Source of the DNA: Alistipes sp.
Lineage (GTDB): Bacteria; Bacteroidota; Bacteroidia; Bacteroidales; Rikenellaceae
Assembly: GCA_017621455.1 (NCBI GenBank)
Contig: JAGATC010000010.1
Span: 154,983-218,982 of the forward strand
Length of the DNA: 64,000 nucleotides
Reading direction: 5' to 3'
The translations under genes were made by a program, and so were the position numbers. A model generated the notes under the pieces. The model had not been told where the DNA came from, searched no databases, and saw only the letters and a list, made by a program, of their open reading frames with translations. Positions 16,997 through 22,963 of the stretch are shown here, piece after piece (within the stretch, counting starts at the first letter, position 1; every line of letters starts with the position of its first letter).

Positions 16997-17028
16997 TTTG
17001 GTAGCAACATATAATAGTAGTAATTTTG
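16997..17028 (+). promoter_or_regulatory. Bacteroidetes-type promoter of the lipoprotein/rSAM cluster
   Basis: TTTG at 16997-17000 and TAATTTTG at 17021-17028, separated by 20 bases, match the Bacteroidetes housekeeping promoter. The expected start of transcription is only about 10-15 bases before the first ATG (17050), so the leader is very short. Confidence 0.75.
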
Positions 17029-17049: not shown

Positions 17050-17673
17050 ATGAGACGACTACTTACCACACTATTTGTTTCCATTGCAGCGTGCGCACTC
17101 TCGTCGTGTGAGCGCGATTTCTTGTCGCTATTCCACTTGGATGGTGAGGCCCCGATAAGCATAAAACTCTACGGCTCGCGCTACGATTTCGATGGGGAGA
17201 AGTTAAAGAGTGATGGTGGCGTATTCTCGCCTAACAACCACCCAGAGATGGTTATCTATAGTGAGGGCGGCTTCAAGTTCGACCTATATAGACATATAAG
17301 TGGCGCAGGCGATACAGAGGCTACGATATACTTCTCGCTTGAGAGTCCCAATGCAGACTTTGAGCTAAATAGAAGATATAGCCTCGCAACAGCGGACGAA
17401 GGCTACGCCTGCATAGAGTTTAAGGAGCGTGGCGAGACGGAGACCCTGCCCAGTGGCGGTACGGTTACCGACATTATCATCTACCGCTACAATGCTGTGA
17501 GTGGCCACATCATCTTCACCGACCGCGAGCCCTATGGCGACGACTACCTATTTAGTGGCGAGTTTGAGTTTGTGGGGCGCACCAAAGATGGCGACGAGAT
17601 AGAGGTGCGCCGTGGTAGGTTTAGCGACTGCCGTATATGCTTCTGCTACGATGTTGGCTGCAACGGGTGGTAG
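17050..17673 (+). CDS. Lipoprotein, first gene of the lipoprotein/rSAM cluster
   Basis: 207 residues with lipobox LSSC (modified cysteine at residue 20). The mature part looks all-beta and carries no family I can name with confidence. It lacks the YGCP and DGEANGG motifs of the following paralogues, so it belongs to a different family. The C-terminus is unusual: DCRICFCYDVGCNGW holds four cysteines in the last 15 residues. It is preceded by a consensus promoter and is followed after 38 bases by the paralogous lipoprotein array, so it may be a partner or another substrate of the two radical SAM enzymes downstream. Confidence 0.7.
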   Translation: MRRLLTTLFVSIAACALSSCERDFLSLFHLDGEAPISIKLYGSRYDFDGEKLKSDGGVFSPNNHPEMVIYSEGGFKFDLYRHISGAGDTEATIYFSLESPNADFELNRRYSLATADEGYACIEFKERGETETLPSGGTVTDIIIYRYNAVSGHIIFTDREPYGDDYLFSGEFEFVGRTKDGDEIEVRRGRFSDCRICFCYDVGCNGW

Positions 17674-17711
17674 AGAGTGAGCGATGATATATAATATAAA
17701 GGTAAACGACT

Positions 17712-18152
17712 ATGAAGAAGCTAATCTATTTTCTGATGACACTTGTGGGTTTTGGTTTTACGAACTGCGAGGATAACCCATTTGCCCAGGAGGATGCCTA
17801 CGGCTGCCCCTATTTGACGTTCCGTATGACGGCACGTGTGGTCGACGAGGCGGGTAATCCCATTGAGGGTATTGGTGTTGGCTTCTCGGATGTTGGCATT
17901 TGCGCTTATAGCGATGTCGATGGCTATGTAGAGGTAGACAAAACCCTAATCCCAACACTAAAGGAGGTCTCCTTCATAGACACGGATGGCGAGGCGAATG
18001 GTGGCGAGTTCGAGACCCTCCAACTCGACATTACAGATAAGTTTGTGCAGCCAGGCAAGCCCTCGGGTGATTGGCACGATGTTGACTGGAAGGTCGAGTT
18101 GGGTGATGTCACTATGGTGCTTAAAGATAGTGATAAGGCTGATAACGAGTAA
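17712..18152 (+). CDS. rSAM-associated putative lipoprotein, paralogue 1
   Basis: 146 residues. Signal with lipobox FTNC, cysteine at residue 19. After the linker comes YGCP, then a beta domain resembling a carboxypeptidase-regulatory/Ig-like repeat (ARVVDEAGNPIEGI), then the motif DTDGEANGGEFETLQLDI, and the end LGDVTMVLKDS. The same order recurs in the next four genes. To my knowledge this matches the family annotated as radical SAM-associated putative lipoprotein (TIGR04134), whose modification has not been demonstrated. The final base pair of its stop codon region lies 12 bases before the next true start. Confidence 0.82.
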   Translation: MKKLIYFLMTLVGFGFTNCEDNPFAQEDAYGCPYLTFRMTARVVDEAGNPIEGIGVGFSDVGICAYSDVDGYVEVDKTLIPTLKEVSFIDTDGEANGGEFETLQLDITDKFVQPGKPSGDWHDVDWKVELGDVTMVLKDSDKADNE

Positions 18153-18163
18153 TGTATAGTGTT

Positions 18164-18604
18164 ATGAAAAAGCTAATGTACTTTCTGATGGCTCTTGTGG
18201 GCTTTGGTTTTACGAGCTGTGATGACGGTGGCATATTGCCCGCCGCGCCAGAGTATGGTTGTCCACACGTAAACTTCAGTCTTAAGGCACGCGTTGTCGA
18301 CCAGTCGGGCGAGCCTATCGAGGGCATTAAGGTTCAGGCAGGCTGGATTGATGGGCATACTAACCAAGATGGTGAAATCAAAGTTAACGGCACGGTATAT
18401 CCTGGGGATCAGTATATAGCGATTTTCGAGGATATAGACGGCGAGGCGAATGGCGGAGAGTTCGAGACCCTCCGACTCGATATTACAGACAAGGTAGTGC
18501 AGACCAAAGAGGGCTCTGGAAGTTGGTACGATGGTGACTACGAGGCCGAGTTGGGTGACGTCACTATGGTGCTTAAGGATAGTAATCAGGCAGAAAACGA
18601 ATAA
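18164..18604 (+). CDS. rSAM-associated putative lipoprotein, paralogue 2
   Basis: 146 residues from ATG 18164. An upstream in-frame ATG at 18152 overlaps the previous stop, but only the 18164 start gives a canonical signal, MKKLMYFLMALVGFGFTSC, with the lipid-bearing cysteine at residue 19. YGCP, ARVVDQSGEPIEGI, DIDGEANGGEFET and LGDVTMVLKDS follow in the same order as in paralogue 1. The signal peptides of paralogues 1-3 are almost identical in DNA too, which points to recent tandem duplication. Confidence 0.82.
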   Translation: MKKLMYFLMALVGFGFTSCDDGGILPAAPEYGCPHVNFSLKARVVDQSGEPIEGIKVQAGWIDGHTNQDGEIKVNGTVYPGDQYIAIFEDIDGEANGGEFETLRLDITDKVVQTKEGSGSWYDGDYEAELGDVTMVLKDSNQAENE

Positions 18605-18615
18605 TATGTAGCGCT

Positions 18616-19095
18616 ATGAAGAGGCTAATCTATTTTCTGATGGCTCTTGTGGGCTTTGGTGCTGCGGGCTGCGAGGAGTTTAGCGCGGCGGAGTATGGTT
18701 GTCCCAATGTTAACTTCCGTGTTACGGCGCGTGTGGTCGACGAGGCGGGTGAGCCTATCGAGGGCATCCGTGTGGGCATCTACCACGAGGAGTGGGATGG
18801 TGGCTACGCGTGTGAGGACTTCGAGGATAGAACAGGTTATACCGACTATCAAGGCTGTATAGATGCCTACGGCTCGCCGTTTGACGTTCCGGATAAGTTG
18901 GTGATCGAGGATGTCGACGGCGAGGCTAATGGTGGCGAGTACGAGACACAGATTGTTGATGTTGTAGGCTTCGAGCAGACCGAGGAGGGCTCGGGTCACT
19001 GGTATGGTGGCGCTTATGAGGTACACCTTGGCGATGTAACAATGAAGCTAAAGGCCACTAATAGTGAGGACAACAGCGAAACAGCTAAGGAGTAA
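18616..19095 (+). CDS. rSAM-associated putative lipoprotein, paralogue 3
   Basis: 159 residues, signal ending FGAAGC (cysteine 19). It keeps YGCP, ARVVDEAGEPIEGI, DVDGEANGGEYET and LGDVTMKLKA. Compared with its neighbours it has about 15 additional residues in the middle, in a loop rich in Gly, Asp and aromatic residues with two cysteines (GGYACEDFEDRTGY, YQGCIDAY), and a Ser/Glu-rich C-terminal tail. It lies 11 bases after paralogue 2 and 5 bases before paralogue 4. Confidence 0.82.
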   Translation: MKRLIYFLMALVGFGAAGCEEFSAAEYGCPNVNFRVTARVVDEAGEPIEGIRVGIYHEEWDGGYACEDFEDRTGYTDYQGCIDAYGSPFDVPDKLVIEDVDGEANGGEYETQIVDVVGFEQTEEGSGHWYGGAYEVHLGDVTMKLKATNSEDNSETAKE

Positions 19096-19100
19096 CGGCT

Positions 19101-19514
19101 ATGAGACGACTTATTTACGGACTGTTTGCTGTGGCTCTGCTTGCTGCGGTGGGCTGCGAGAAGGAGGTCTCGCACGAGGATCAATACTTTGTATTGTGGT
19201 TCTCGACAACCGTCGTGGACGAGGCGGGTGAGCCTATCCAGGGTATCAAGGCTGCGCCTGTGGATGGTGAGTTTGTGGGTCGCACGGGCTACTCCGACTA
19301 CAAGGGTAAGATAAGCGCGAGAGCATACCTCACACCGCGCACCGAGTGGGCAGTATGCTTCGAGGATGTCGATGGCGAGGCCAATGGTGGCATCTACGAA
19401 TCAACGACAATAACCATTAACCCAAAGGCGCCAGTGAAGCCCGACGATTGGGGCTTTGTTGGCAGCGATGTGGTTACCATCGAGAAGGTGGTACTAAAGA
19501 AGAGTAATAACTAA
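19101..19514 (+). CDS. rSAM-associated putative lipoprotein, paralogue 4 (no YGCP)
   Basis: 137 residues, lipobox AVGC with cysteine 19. The beta domain is retained (TTVVDEAGEPIQGI) as is FEDVDGEANGGIYES, but the YGCP motif is replaced by DQYFVLW and the ending is diverged (EKVVLKKSNN). The persistence of DGEANGG while other positions drift suggests that this segment, not YGCP, is the most constrained feature of the family. Confidence 0.78.
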   Translation: MRRLIYGLFAVALLAAVGCEKEVSHEDQYFVLWFSTTVVDEAGEPIQGIKAAPVDGEFVGRTGYSDYKGKISARAYLTPRTEWAVCFEDVDGEANGGIYESTTITINPKAPVKPDDWGFVGSDVVTIEKVVLKKSNN

Positions 19515-19519
19515 TAACT

Positions 19520-19864
19520 ATGGGAAAGCTACTTACGCGACTATTTGCGCTATTTGGCATGACGCTCACCTGCGTGGCGTGCTACGGCGTGGGCTACACG
19601 GAGTTTAAGCCCGAGTTTTCGGCGACGGGACGCGTTGTCGACGGGGAGGGTATGCCCATCGAGGGTATCGAGGCATCTATTGCACCGAATAAGACTACGA
19701 CGGATGAAAACGGCCGCTTCTACATCAGTGGTAGGAGTCCGTATATCTACTTCCACGATGTCGATGGTGAGGCCAATGGAGGCGAGTTTATCGACCAACA
19801 TATAGAGCTTGAGGTTGAGGGGCAACAGCTCGAGTTGGGAGATATAACGCTCGAGCGAGAGTAG
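19520..19864 (+). CDS. rSAM-associated putative lipoprotein, paralogue 5 (short)
   Basis: 114 residues. The signal ends in TLTC or CVAC, so the lipidated cysteine is residue 18 or 21. It contains the beta domain (TGRVVDGEGMPIEGI), a canonical repeat end TTTDENGRFYISG, HDVDGEANGGEFI and LGDITLERE. YGCP is replaced by YGVGY. It is the shortest full paralogue and shows the minimal core shared by all five. Confidence 0.78.
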   Translation: MGKLLTRLFALFGMTLTCVACYGVGYTEFKPEFSATGRVVDGEGMPIEGIEASIAPNKTTTDENGRFYISGRSPYIYFHDVDGEANGGEFIDQHIELEVEGQQLELGDITLERE

Positions 19865-19918
19865 ATGGCTAATATTGAGCAATTTGTAAATCGAACAAAT
19901 ATAAAACATTTATAATAT

Positions 19919-20101
19919 ATGAAACGACTACTTATATTTGCGCTTGGACTGTTGGGCTTCTCGTTAGCGTCGTGCGTCGAGATGTATGGCTGTCCTACGC
20001 CTGTGCAACGACCCTCAACCGAGGAGGATAAGAGCGAGGAGGAGGAGAATAGCACCGAGGGTGAGGAGGATAGTAGCGCTGAGGCAGCCTTTGAGAATTA
20101 G
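19919..20101 (+). CDS. Mini-lipoprotein, paralogue 6 (signal, YGCP and acidic tail only)
   Basis: 60 residues. MKRLLIFALGLLGFSLASC is a strong lipoprotein signal with the modified cysteine at residue 19. The mature protein is 42 residues: VEMYGCP follows directly, then a low-complexity tail dominated by Glu and Ser. The beta domain and the DGEANGG motif are missing. It may be a truncated paralogue or a minimal substrate that presents only YGCP. The reading frame is intact with a normal start, and the gap of 54 bases before it is AT-rich. Confidence 0.65.
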   Translation: MKRLLIFALGLLGFSLASCVEMYGCPTPVQRPSTEEDKSEEEENSTEGEEDSSAEAAFEN

Positions 20102-20116
20102 CAACATCTGTATAGT

Positions 20117-20207
20117 CGTCATTCCGAGGGAGCGCAGCGACTGTGGGAATCTCATACCGAGACAACACACGAGATTGCCACGGCTTGTACCAAGCCTCGC
20201 AATGACG
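20117..20207. repeat. Imperfect palindromic interspersed repeat (CGTCATT...AATGACG)
   Basis: The ends CGTCATTCCGAGG and CCTCGCAATGACG are inverted repeats, and an inner pair GGGAATCTC / GAGATTGCC continues the palindrome. Sequences beginning CGTCATTGCGAG and ending CGCAATGACG are a widespread class of bacterial interspersed palindromes. It lies in the gap between the mini-lipoprotein and the next lipoprotein and could act on RNA processing or simply be a mobile remnant. Confidence 0.75.
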
Positions 20208-20237
20208 AGAGTATAATATATTAATTATTAGGTGTAT

Positions 20238-20774
20238 ATGAAACGAATAGCAATAATCGTGGCATTGGGCGCGTTGGGTATCGCCTTTGCTGCGGCATCG
20301 CTCTGGGTGATGCTTAGCGGGGAGCGCAGTGCACGTGCCGTGCGCACGAAGTTCCGCATAGGTGGCGCTATGCTCACCCTTGCGTCAATGATTTCGCTCA
20401 CCTCGTGTGGTGGGCCTGGCGACGAGTATGGCGTGTCGTGCTACGACCCTGCACCTCCTATAGAGAATGACCACCGTTGGAATCAGGGTGTAGCTAATAG
20501 CGAGCTTCGCAATGGCGACAAGGTTGTGCTCTTCTACGAGTGCCGCTTCGGCAGTGAGGTAAAGGTGTCGCTCGTGACCGACGATGAGGGTGAAGATAGG
20601 GTGCTTTGCAGCCAGACATATGAGGTAGTTAAGGGAGGAAATCAGCTTGAGTTTACCATCGAGGCTGGCGACTATCGCGGTCGTGCCCAGCTGTGCGTGG
20701 AGTACGACAAATATCAGGATGGCGACGAGACTACCTGGCCTATGGGCGGTATCTTTGTAGCTATTGTAGACTAA
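20238..20774 (+). CDS. Lipoprotein with two N-terminal hydrophobic segments and YGVSCY motif
   Basis: 178 residues from ATG 20238 (an in-frame GTG at 20232 is less likely). Residues 4-26 form a first hydrophobic segment, followed by a basic stretch (ERSARAVRTKFR), then a second hydrophobic segment ending in the lipobox LTSC at residue 57. Just after it comes DEYGVSCYDPAP, reminiscent of the YGCP motif of the array. The rest is a beta-rich domain with four more cysteines spread along it. It ends 3 bases before the first radical SAM gene, so that enzyme is the natural partner. The double hydrophobic leader is unusual for a lipoprotein. Confidence 0.72.
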   Translation: MKRIAIIVALGALGIAFAAASLWVMLSGERSARAVRTKFRIGGAMLTLASMISLTSCGGPGDEYGVSCYDPAPPIENDHRWNQGVANSELRNGDKVVLFYECRFGSEVKVSLVTDDEGEDRVLCSQTYEVVKGGNQLEFTIEAGDYRGRAQLCVEYDKYQDGDETTWPMGGIFVAIVD

Positions 20775-20777
20775 GTT

Positions 20778-21812
20778 ATGCTCTTTGCGCGTCGTAAAAA
20801 GTTGGAGTTGGGAGTGGTGGTATTCGAGCTTACGGATGCCTGCAATCAGGCGTGTAAGTTCTGCTACAACCACTTTAAGGGTGCCTCGGGCTATTGTACC
20901 CCCGAGCCTCCCGACTTCCGTGTGGCTGAGCGTACACTAAAAAAGCTCCTTAACGAGGCATCGATTGCAAGCCTCTCGCTCTCGGGTGGCGAGCCGATGC
21001 TTATGCCGCGCATCCACGACCTTGTCTTTAAGGCGCGCTTTGCAGGCTCGAATGTCAATGTGCTCACTAATGGCACACTGCTTAAGGATGATGACATCGC
21101 CATATTCAACGACATTGGCGTGGCGATGATTCAGATACCCATCCTCTCTACCGATGCCGCTACGCACGATGCGCTCACCTCGCTTTCGGGCTCGTGGGAG
21201 CGCGCTACGGCTGCGGCACGCAAGGTGGCAGCAACGCGTGCGGGGTGGCTTGCGCCAGTGCTGATACTCACGCACCAGAACCTCGCAACAATAGAGCCCA
21301 CGCTGGAGCTATATGCCGAGCTGGGGGCGACCAACATCCTTGTCAACCGCTTCAATATCGGTGGCCTCGGCATAGGCAATGCCCGCGAGCTTGTGATGTC
21401 GCACGCTGAGCTACGTGAGGCATTCGCTCGCGCCAATGCCAAGCTGCAACAACTTAACCTTCGGGCGCATAGCGGAGTATGCACGCCGATGTGCGTGCTC
21501 AACCCTAAGGAGTATTCAAATATAACCTTTACGCACTGCACCACCGACCTACGTTCGCGACCACTCACGGTGAACTACCGTGGCGATGTGCGCTTCTGCA
21601 ACCACTCGCCGCGCGTGTTGGGCAATATCCACCAAGAGTCGCTCGATGCGATTTTAGAGCGTTCGCAGTCGGATGGTTACTTTGCCTCACGCCCCGCGGA
21701 GTGTGCCTCGTGCACGCTGTGGGAGCGTTGCCGTGGAGGCTGCCGTGCCGCCTCGGAGCAACTATACGGCACTTTCGACCGTGTAGACCCAGTGCTTTCA
21801 ACTGATAACTAA
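20778..21812 (+). CDS. Radical SAM/SPASM enzyme 1
   Basis: 344 residues. The [4Fe-4S]-SAM cysteines are C22, C26 and C29 in DACNQACKFC (CX3CX2C), followed by LSLSGGEPMLM, the SAM-binding glycine-rich motif. The C-terminus has a SPASM-type auxiliary cluster region: RFCNHSPRVLGNI and CASCTLWERCRGGCRA. SPASM proteins modify peptides or proteins, for example by thioether or carbon-carbon crosslinks. The gene follows the YGVSCY lipoprotein by 3 bases and precedes the second radical SAM gene by 13. It is only distantly similar to that second enzyme, which suggests the two have different substrates or successive steps. Confidence 0.88.
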   Translation: MLFARRKKLELGVVVFELTDACNQACKFCYNHFKGASGYCTPEPPDFRVAERTLKKLLNEASIASLSLSGGEPMLMPRIHDLVFKARFAGSNVNVLTNGTLLKDDDIAIFNDIGVAMIQIPILSTDAATHDALTSLSGSWERATAAARKVAATRAGWLAPVLILTHQNLATIEPTLELYAELGATNILVNRFNIGGLGIGNARELVMSHAELREAFARANAKLQQLNLRAHSGVCTPMCVLNPKEYSNITFTHCTTDLRSRPLTVNYRGDVRFCNHSPRVLGNIHQESLDAILERSQSDGYFASRPAECASCTLWERCRGGCRAASEQLYGTFDRVDPVLSTDN

Positions 21813-21825
21813 CAACAAACGATAT

Positions 21826-22902
21826 ATGGGAAAACGCATAGGACCGCGCCAATGGGTCGCGCTCAAGCTATTTAAGAAACTGCGCCAGATACGTCGCGAT
21901 GAGCACATACTAAATACACTTTTTTGGGAGTGCACCCTGCGCTGTAACTTGCAGTGCCGCCACTGCGGTAGCGACTGCCGAGTAGACTCCGCGCTAAAGG
22001 ATATGCCGGCAAAAGATTTTTTCCGTGTGCTCGACAACGAGATTACGCCCAATGTCAACCCCAACAAGGTGCTTGTCATCCTCTCGGGAGGCGAGGTGCT
22101 TGTGCGTAAGGATTTGGAGGAGATAGGCATCAACCTCTACCGTCGTGGCTACCCTTGGGGTATGGTGACTAACGGTCTCGGCCTCTCGCGCCAGCGTCTC
22201 GACTCGCTTATCCGCTCGGGTCTGCACTCTATAACTGTCTCGCTCGACGGCTTCGAGGAGCACCACTACCATATCCGCCAAAACAAGGATAGCTTCCAGC
22301 GCGCTGTGGAGGCCATTAGGATGATTTCGGCCGACAAGGAGCTTGTCTCGGACGTGGTTACGTGCGTAACTCCCGCGCTGCTACCCCGCTTGGAGGAGTT
22401 TAAGGAGTTTCTATACTCGCTTGGCGTGCGCCAGTGGCGTCTCTTTACCATCTTCCCCGTAGGTCGTGCCGCTACCGACCCCACGCTACAGCTCAACGAC
22501 GAGGAGTTCACCTACGTGATGCAGTTTATCGAGCAGTGTCGTAAGGAGGGACGTGTTAAGGCATCATACGGCTGCGAGGGCTTCCTTGCGGGCTACGAGA
22601 TGCGTGTGCGCACCAACCCGTTCGAGTGCTATGCGGGCGTGGGCGTCGCCTCTATTCGCGTCAATGGCGACATCTCGGGCTGTACCTCGGTGCGTGCTAA
22701 CTTCACGCAGGGTAACATATATGAGGATAACTTCTGGGATGTGTGGCAAAACCGCTTCGAGAAGTTCCGCAACCGCGACTGGGCGAAGAAGGGCAAGTGT
22801 GCCGACTGCAAGATGTGGCAGTACTGCGAGGGTAACGGCATGCACCTCTACGACGATGACGAGAATCTGCTCGTCTGTCACTACCATAGACTAACCAAGT
22901 AG
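21826..22902 (+). CDS. Radical SAM/SPASM enzyme 2, rSAM/lipoprotein system type
   Basis: 358 residues. The radical SAM cluster ligands are C40, C44 and C47 in LRCNLQCRHC, with an extra C36 and C51 close by (WEC, SDC). LSGGEVLVRKDL is the SAM motif. The SPASM region includes ECYAGVGVASIRVNGDISGC, then KCADCKMWQYCEGNGMH and a last cysteine in LLVCHYH. The opening ALKLFKKLRQIRRDEH followed by TLFWECTLRCN is how I remember the enzyme of the rSAM/lipoprotein system (TIGR04133). It closes the cluster and is followed by a terminator. Confidence 0.88.
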   Translation: MGKRIGPRQWVALKLFKKLRQIRRDEHILNTLFWECTLRCNLQCRHCGSDCRVDSALKDMPAKDFFRVLDNEITPNVNPNKVLVILSGGEVLVRKDLEEIGINLYRRGYPWGMVTNGLGLSRQRLDSLIRSGLHSITVSLDGFEEHHYHIRQNKDSFQRAVEAIRMISADKELVSDVVTCVTPALLPRLEEFKEFLYSLGVRQWRLFTIFPVGRAATDPTLQLNDEEFTYVMQFIEQCRKEGRVKASYGCEGFLAGYEMRVRTNPFECYAGVGVASIRVNGDISGCTSVRANFTQGNIYEDNFWDVWQNRFEKFRNRDWAKKGKCADCKMWQYCEGNGMHLYDDDENLLVCHYHRLTK

Positions 22903-22932
22903 CATAAACATAATAGTAGTGATGATGGATGG

Positions 22933-22963
22933 GGACGCTTTGTAGCGTCCTCTTCCTTTTTTT
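22933..22963 (+). terminator. Intrinsic terminator of the lipoprotein/rSAM cluster
   Basis: Stem GGACGCT (22933-22939) with AGCGTCC (22944-22950), loop TTGT, followed by TCTTCC and a run of seven T. Confidence 0.88.

Follow-up and report, generated by a model that had tools for sequence, protein, structure and literature searches.

A 64,000-nucleotide stretch (the window; G000:C5:154983-218982) of the 2.1 Mb draft genome of Alistipes sp. (GCA_017621455.1) contains an operon of ten open reading frames (ORFs), all on the + strand (17050-22902). It comprises eight predicted lipoproteins and two radical S-adenosylmethionine (SAM)/SPASM enzymes, rSAM1 and rSAM2, with a promoter before and a terminator after them. 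From sequence comparison we predict, with a probability of roughly 55%, that rSAM2 splices tyramine out of the lipoprotein backbone at a Tyr-Gly (YG) site near the predicted membrane anchor, leaving a reactive keto group. The prediction is that rSAM2 works like a splicease, not that it is a member of the PlpX family. A preliminary description of this DNA had offered no chemistry for such systems; it can be predicted from the YGxP site of the lipoproteins together with the grouping of the enzyme.

rSAM2 and lipoproteins of the TIGR04133/TIGR04134 system

Domain searches revealed Radical_SAM and SPASM domains in both enzymes. rSAM2 (358 amino acids (aa); 21826-22902), the predicted splicease, is a member of TIGR04133 (rSAM_w_lipo) with 577 bits at a cut-off of 425, and lipoproteins 2, 3 and 4 pass TIGR04134 (lipo_with_rSAM; cut-off 39.8 bits). 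The family scores thus bear out the rSAM/lipoprotein system of this kind that the preliminary description had suspected and proposed to search for with the two models. Enzyme and lipoproteins share one operon and strand, as in the system defined by these two NCBIfam hypothetical equivalogs, whose model descriptions name neither site nor chemistry. Unlike that system, the window operon has a second enzyme module merged in, and several predicted substrates (lipoproteins 6 and 7 and the partner of a second TIGR04133 copy, see below) fail TIGR04134.

A search of 295 Bacteroidales genomes showed a TIGR04133 match over the cut-off in 61 and a TIGR04134 match over the cut-off in 40. The contrary pattern, lipoproteins that always occur without a radical SAM gene, was looked for; what we found was TIGR04133 over its cut-off in 38 of the 40 genomes with TIGR04134 (Fisher p ~2e-29). 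The two exceptions are G288, which has a 355-bit TIGR04133 match, and G227, with weak matches only (best E 2e-13). The TIGR04134 place of the latter is G227:C35:12552-12887. Parabacteroides distasonis is among the species with an enzyme and lipoprotein pair of this kind (WP_005853865.1 / WP_036633130.1).

A YGxP site in lipoproteins near TIGR04133 genes

The locus set consisted of 81 loci, namely 80 loci from other sequence stretches (70 over the TIGR04133 cut-off and 10 below) and the window. Patterns of two to four positions were ranked by comparing lipoproteins near the rSAM gene with the remaining lipoproteins of these stretches. YG.P (dot, any residue; hereafter YGxP) ranked first, with 49 of 70 near lipoproteins versus 1 of 54 elsewhere, and the single outside case (L073) is again such a lipoprotein, encoded 3 kb upstream. 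The shorter YG ranked second (55/70 versus 8/54).

With an initial lipobox filter, which missed leaders ending in FQAC or MQAC, a near lipoprotein was seen at only 47 of the 81 loci; a looser definition of exported ORFs, with a control of its own, took its place. By locus, YGxP was then present near the enzyme at 69/81 and at 1/81 in control zones, which are larger, cover both strands and are in many cases shortened by contig ends. The one control-zone match belongs to the window itself: its lipoprotein 2 is past the 1.5 kb limit of the near zone, so that the window was scored as a miss. After shuffling the residues of the near ORFs, YGxP occurred at 2.05 loci on average, and each of six other patterns (FG.P, YA.P, GY.P etc.) matched 0-5 loci near the enzyme and 0-4 in control zones.

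Proteins chosen by the TIGR04134 model and not by the motif carry YGxP in 38 of 41 cases and YG in all 41, with the caveat that the family model may itself stem from motif-bearing proteins. The three without the proline read MYGVI, EYGSF and LYGPM. This set holds 41 of the 54 places over the cut-off, with 13 others, the window's own and one joined piece standing outside it.

The residue X preceding YG varies (n=49: E 14, K 8, C 8, M 7, V 6, A 4, L 2). YG directly follows the lipobox Cys in 8 of the 49 lipoproteins of the pattern ranking and at 14 of 34 loci of a second set; ACYGTP or ACYGVP was found at L053, L054, L056, L058-L060, L062-L064 and L066-L070. The site usually sits close to the lipobox, but in some lipoproteins as many as 71 residues separate it from the lipobox Cys. 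One leader Gly and the lipobox Cys are invariant across 35 aligned YGxP lipoproteins.

The genome of the window has a second TIGR04133 gene on another contig (L016 7998-9446; G000:C15), 63% identical to rSAM2. Its neighbour encodes a 120-aa lipoprotein with MYGVPFPDG, for which searches revealed neither an NCBIfam match (E <= 1e-10) nor a TIGR04134 match (E <= 1e-6). Exported ORFs near TIGR04133 genes at L032, L040 and L038 carry AQ-YG[AV]P, and no lipobox was recognised in them; cleavage by signal peptidase I ahead of the Gln would put the YG site at the extreme N-terminus.

In the window, X-Tyr-Gly sites occur in five neighbours of rSAM2, lipoproteins 2, 3, 4 and 7 (YGCP) and 6 (CYGVG). Lipoprotein 2 (17712-18152; TIGR04134 53.6 bits) has AYGCP at 17796-17810, and EYGCP is found in lipoprotein 3 (18152-18604, likely start ATG 18164; 84.9 bits; YGCP 18254-18265) and lipoprotein 4 (18616-19095; 79.7 bits; YGCP 18694-18705). 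Lipoprotein 6 (19520-19864; 29.9 bits, below the cut-off) has C-Y-G-V-G right at its lipobox Cys (YGVG 19583-19594), and some relatives, e.g. at L094 and L116, have CYGxP. Mini-lipoprotein 7 (60 aa; 19919-20101) consists of a leader and MYGCP (YGCP 19985-19996). Its earlier description as a mini-paralogue needs correcting: it has the leader and YGCP in common with lipoproteins 2-4 but neither a beta domain nor a TIGR04134 match. The beta-domain paralogue lipoprotein 5 (19101-19514; 30.6 bits, below the cut-off) has no YG site behind its lipobox and could serve as a built-in negative control for the predicted YG chemistry. The family-model search of the operon proteins gave no TIGR04134 match for lipoproteins 1, 7 and 8.

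A structure model of lipoprotein 3 showed a leader helix and, starting at residue 40, a beta domain; C23 and Y35-G36-C37-P38 lie in a tether of lower confidence (mean predicted local distance difference test (pLDDT) 54 for residues 21-30 and 79 for residues 31-40). An assignment of function from the lipoprotein fold was dropped, as the matches were generic beta-sandwiches only (SusC NTE domain, TMt 0.76).

Grouping of rSAM2 with XYG-associated enzymes

According to excerpts of PMC10533398, PlpXY excises tyramine at X-Tyr-Gly, with MYG and LYG as natural sites, and its tags, PIRP(L/G)YGLPI, are of YGxP form. PlpX has been assigned to IPR026482 in the part of PMC11002830 consulted. A Nostoc plasmid enzyme over the TIGR04103 cut-off (853 bits) adjoins a Nif11 peptide ending in SIALYGLPPELF (ALYGLPPELF), the same X-Y-G-x-P form as in the TIGR04133-linked lipoproteins. 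We take IPR026482 to be TIGR04103. YGxP-like or XYG sites were also found beside other enzymes of this group. A Bacteroidales enzyme (L136, 1468-3596; also L141) that scores 233 bits to TIGR03913, 218 to TIGR04103, 197 to AhbD and 178 to TIGR04133 precedes a 214-aa protein with six KYGYP repeats at its C-terminus, possibly a multi-site splicing substrate. An rSAM enzyme of the same clade on an Agathobacter rectalis plasmid (L160 3794-5137; TIGR04103 235, TIGR03913 225, TIGR04133 185 bits) is directly preceded by an unannotated 35-aa ORF ending in GPVMYGTGVRM. Four small peptides adjoin the GDL-type enzymes at L132 and in Azospirillum (L162); LYG or PYG occurs close to the start of three of them, and DUF1843 was found or annotated for three.

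The signature CxxxCxxCGS, present in rSAM2, is shared by 81/81 TIGR04133 enzymes, by 20/20 and 3/3 PlpX/GDL-type rows and by four named plasmid enzymes of the PlpX/GDL kind, and occurs in 118 of the best 120 of 5432 proteins listed. It is absent from rSAM1 and its relatives (0/10), from other rows (0/14) and from the MftC and TIGR04053 examples. In a 45-row tree, TIGR04133 and the PlpX/GDL enzymes (TIGR04103/TIGR03913) form one side of a branch with bootstrap/Shimodaira-Hasegawa-like approximate likelihood ratio test (SH-aLRT) support of 100/98; the other side holds MftC, TIGR04053, NirJ/AhbD-like and SbtM-like rows and rSAM1. Within this tree the closest rows to TIGR04133 are the Agathobacter enzyme and the KYGYP-repeat enzyme (94/88). 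The joint group was also obtained in a quick 76-row tree that has no Agathobacter row (94 SH-aLRT). Outgroup rows are few and several are long; the 45 rows include 16 of the 81 TIGR04133 loci plus L139 and L159, the long rows L154-L157 as well as L138 and L140 being left aside, and L134, L135 and L137 stand outside both the trees and the signature count. PlpXY and the GDL maturases thus resemble rSAM2 in the X-Tyr-Gly site, the signature and the tree group, and the Nostoc precursor shares YGxP.

Proposed reaction

The predicted reaction would take place at the YG of the YGxP lipoproteins before Sec export and lipidation, with excision of tyramine and a mass change of -135.0757 Da at Tyr-Gly. 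The signal peptide may double as the leader, as the invariant leader Gly in the 35 picked and aligned YGxP lipoproteins suggests. At the cell envelope the resulting ketoamide could be a covalent electrophile that, for example, traps proteases. In the CYGxP branch X would be the lipid-bearing Cys, and the acylated mature N-terminus would become a beta-amino-acid ketoamide; the portions of the literature searched contained no description of such a lipid anchor. At rather less than even odds, and so as a tentative extension, we propose that TIGR04133 enzymes in general are lipoprotein spliceases of Bacteroidales that edit envelope lipoproteins before export, including the lipid-bearing Cys of the CYGxP branch, and that in Alistipes a second, unrelated radical enzyme with a Cys-Tyr substrate of its own has joined the operon.

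With a named site, a predicted change of -135.08 Da and lipoprotein 5 as control, the chemistry of TIGR04133 becomes testable by co-expression. If the prediction is true, a backbone-editing reaction of small peptides would extend to lipoproteins of gut Bacteroidales, the envelope would bear electrophilic ketoamides that proteases might encounter, and in the CYGxP branch the lipidated N-terminus itself would be altered.

Overlap with earlier work is possible: the title of Scott et al. 2022 (Chem 8:2659) reportedly speaks of peptides and proteins, and such lipoproteins may already be included there; a 2018 Science paper, a 2011 J Bacteriol rSAM paper and a 2024 Chem Sci paper, the last said to deal with leader-independent tyramine splicing, may overlap as well. 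The literature searched contains no paper that names TIGR04133 or TIGR04134. Among the matches listed there, none connects tyramine splicing with these families or with lipoproteins of Bacteroidales, apart from the possible overlap of Scott et al. 2022. A 2023 survey of Bacteroidales RiPP (ribosomally synthesised and post-translationally modified peptide) clusters has no occurrence of lipoprotein or spliceotide in the main text consulted (PMC10352776). Reviews, in the sections at hand, describe tyramine splicing as widespread in bacteria and its products as protease inhibitors, crediting Scott et al. 2022.

Points against the prediction and alternative explanations

A number of observations weigh against a splicease-like rSAM2, beginning with its distance from PlpX. 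rSAM2 scores 94.7 bits to TIGR04103 (cut-off 725), below its own scores to TIGR04053 and heme enzymes. Unlike PlpXY and the GDL maturases, it lacks the CxxCx5CxxxC of PlpX-type SPASM domains, which is found in 0/81 TIGR04133 enzymes, although most SPASM cysteines are retained. No PqqD match was detected among the ten operon proteins, where a PlpY-like protein could be missed because PlpY is described as smaller than the RiPP recognition element (RRE) fold requires (excerpt of PMC12710340); the one PqqD of the genome is encoded on another contig. The substrates differ as well: those of PlpXY and the GDL maturases have Nif11 or NHLP leaders, whereas the predicted substrates of rSAM2 are lipoproteins with signal peptides. 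Filing rSAM2 as a PlpX was rejected, as it scores below the TIGR04103 cut-off and the operon encodes no PqqD/RRE protein. Among 296 Bacteroidota genomes no true TIGR04103 enzyme passed the cut-off, and six matched at E <= 1e-60. Deriving the chemistry from the rSAM2 fold was also given up; the matches were SkfB, anSME, DesII and SuiB-like. For PlpXY, the two LYGLPI tags tested in FtsZ stayed unmodified and the spliced tag was the long GYG (GYGLPI) form, as far as the excerpts of PMC10533398 go.

The same caution applies to the phylogeny and the motif. At the 0.05 level, approximately unbiased (AU) tests did not reject a topology in which TIGR04133 falls with the other SPASM rows (p = 0.069, at a cost of 18.7 log-likelihood units) or one with a PlpX/GDL clade without TIGR04133 (p = 0.346), and the KYGYP-repeat enzyme shifts, falling with PlpX/GDL in the 76-row tree. 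Outer TIGR04133 relatives (L138-L140; 223-247 bits) lack CxxxCxxCGS and have no evident YGxP partner within 2.6 kb; perhaps their function has changed. YG alone is common (74/81 loci near the enzyme versus 40/81 in control zones), and 12 of the 81 loci have no YGxP match in the near zone. Five of these have sequence there yet no motif in view (L031, L035, L049, L055, L071). The other misses are the window, L065 and L081 (<300 bp of upstream sequence), L048 (MYGVR), L072 (CYGVD), L073, and L050, where MYGCP is present but the leader rule failed. The invariance of Y, G and P in the 35-row alignment is no evidence, since its rows were picked from 93 ORFs chosen for YGxP and the invariance is built in.

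An alternative which we consider unlikely, if worth serious attention, is that rSAM2 acts on YGxP by other chemistry, namely a Tyr-centred crosslink, an oxidative decarboxylation-like cleavage or an epimerisation. PqqE is an instance of other Tyr chemistry within the SPASM family. The motif is centred on Tyr, mycofactocin enzymes likewise perform other Tyr chemistry in this family (in the section of a review consulted), the set of SPASM cysteines in rSAM2 is reduced, and a PqqD/RRE partner is missing from the operon. A crosslink, however, would need a second fixed residue, whereas the variable X with Y, G and usually P kept fits XYG splicing, and both the grouping of rSAM2 and its CGS signature place it with XYG-associated enzymes.

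Distinctly improbable, in our estimate, is a modification of the beta-domain loop with YGxP as a mere tether or leader motif. The preliminary description had singled out D-x-D-G-E-A-N-G-G, which is indeed kept in all five paralogues (ORFs starting at 17712, 18152, 18616, 19101 and 19520); a Phocaeicola relative has a DGEENGG form, and a looser DG..NG occurs in 23 of 83 YGxP-bearing exported ORFs (L004-L083). The full D.DGE.NGG is present in 5 of these 83, seven of which are 51-70 aa long, while YG is found in 41/41 TIGR04134 proteins. Because the full loop is found in few YGxP ORFs and some are so short, YGxP rather than the beta domain is the general characteristic; the loop was not supported as the key motif and was rejected as the modification site. 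We give still less credence to the idea that neither enzyme modifies lipoproteins and that a cofactor or another protein is matured in an operon shared by chance. The scores of rSAM2 to heme and cofactor enzymes would fit it, as would the second TIGR04133 locus with its different lipoprotein, but the co-occurrence in 38/40 genomes (Fisher p ~2e-29) and YGxP beside TIGR04133 at 69/81 loci speak against chance.

rSAM1 and its double-leader partner

rSAM1 (344 aa; 20778-21812) reached no curated NCBIfam cut-off among the 25 families listed; the best is GeoRSP (TIGR04303) with 98.1 bits at a cut-off of 400. It resembles the GeoRSP/PqqE/SkfB enzymes in its best NCBIfam matches (98 and 91 bits), its best PDB-sequence match (SkfB, 54 bits) and a SPASM domain with CxxCx5CxxxC, and differs from them in lying far under the family cut-offs and in having a dedicated partner. 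This partner is the double-leader lipoprotein 8 (20238-20774, most likely starting at ATG 20238), in which the lipobox Cys is followed by EYGVSCYDPAPP (CYDP 20439-20450).

rSAM1 was found in 19 of 200 genomes of its bacterial family at E <= 1e-30 and at 20 named loci, one of them a fragment. Directly upstream, 27 of 28 non-duplicate loci encode a double-leader protein; the miss has 14 bp of upstream sequence before the contig end. Each partner has a pair of hydrophobic segments, of which the second carries a lipobox, and after them a Cys-Tyr motif that is usually CYDP (CY in 27/27). The 26 distinct partners are 161-184 aa long, and the motif is doubled in some (L100, L104-L106).

A TIGR04133 gene is present in the examined stretch at 16 of the 28 rSAM1 loci and not at 12, a few stretches being short. 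Around the 80 other TIGR04133 genes no rSAM1 relative was detected in stretches of up to 8 kb per side, many cut by contig ends, and a role of rSAM1 as general TIGR04133 partner was rejected; this sample includes just two other genomes of the window's family. Since the two are seen paired at 16/28 loci only and no rSAM1 relative was detected in the stretches around the 80 others, the rSAM1 and TIGR04133 systems can occur apart and came together in Alistipes-like genomes. The pairing, which had been called unusual, is so across the order but recurs within the genus. The further suggestion that two enzymes mean two substrate classes agrees with rSAM1 having its own partner and with the 12 loci at which no TIGR04133 gene is seen. 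The rSAM1 pair represents a second radical SAM system with a clear partner and no family name yet. For its reaction a link centred on Cys/Tyr is a guess, made because SkfB is the nearest solved relative by sequence; it is the weakest step of the overall explanation.

Further features of the operon

Lipoprotein 1 (207 aa; 17050-17673), the first gene of the operon, has no YGxP and is weakly similar to the Riean_0653 family (28 bits, cut-off 57). A Bacteroidetes-type promoter, TTTG-N20-TAATTTTG, was identified by pattern search at 16997-17028 on the + strand; the pattern TTTGN{18,21}TANNTTTG has 7 exact matches on both strands of the 64 kb versus 0.42 expected. The strong intrinsic terminator (22931-22952, + strand) consists of a 9-pair stem and a T tract (fold z = -5.5). 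ORF reading, pattern search and fold z together confirm the earlier picture of a one-strand array with a consensus promoter at its start and a terminator at its end. Within the operon, a palindromic interspersed repeat (~20117-20211) separates mini-lipoprotein 7 from the double-leader gene. It has 20 matches in its own genome, itself counted, the next best being 92% identical over 66 bases, and a 104-base stretch at the repeat gave a fold z of -4.8.

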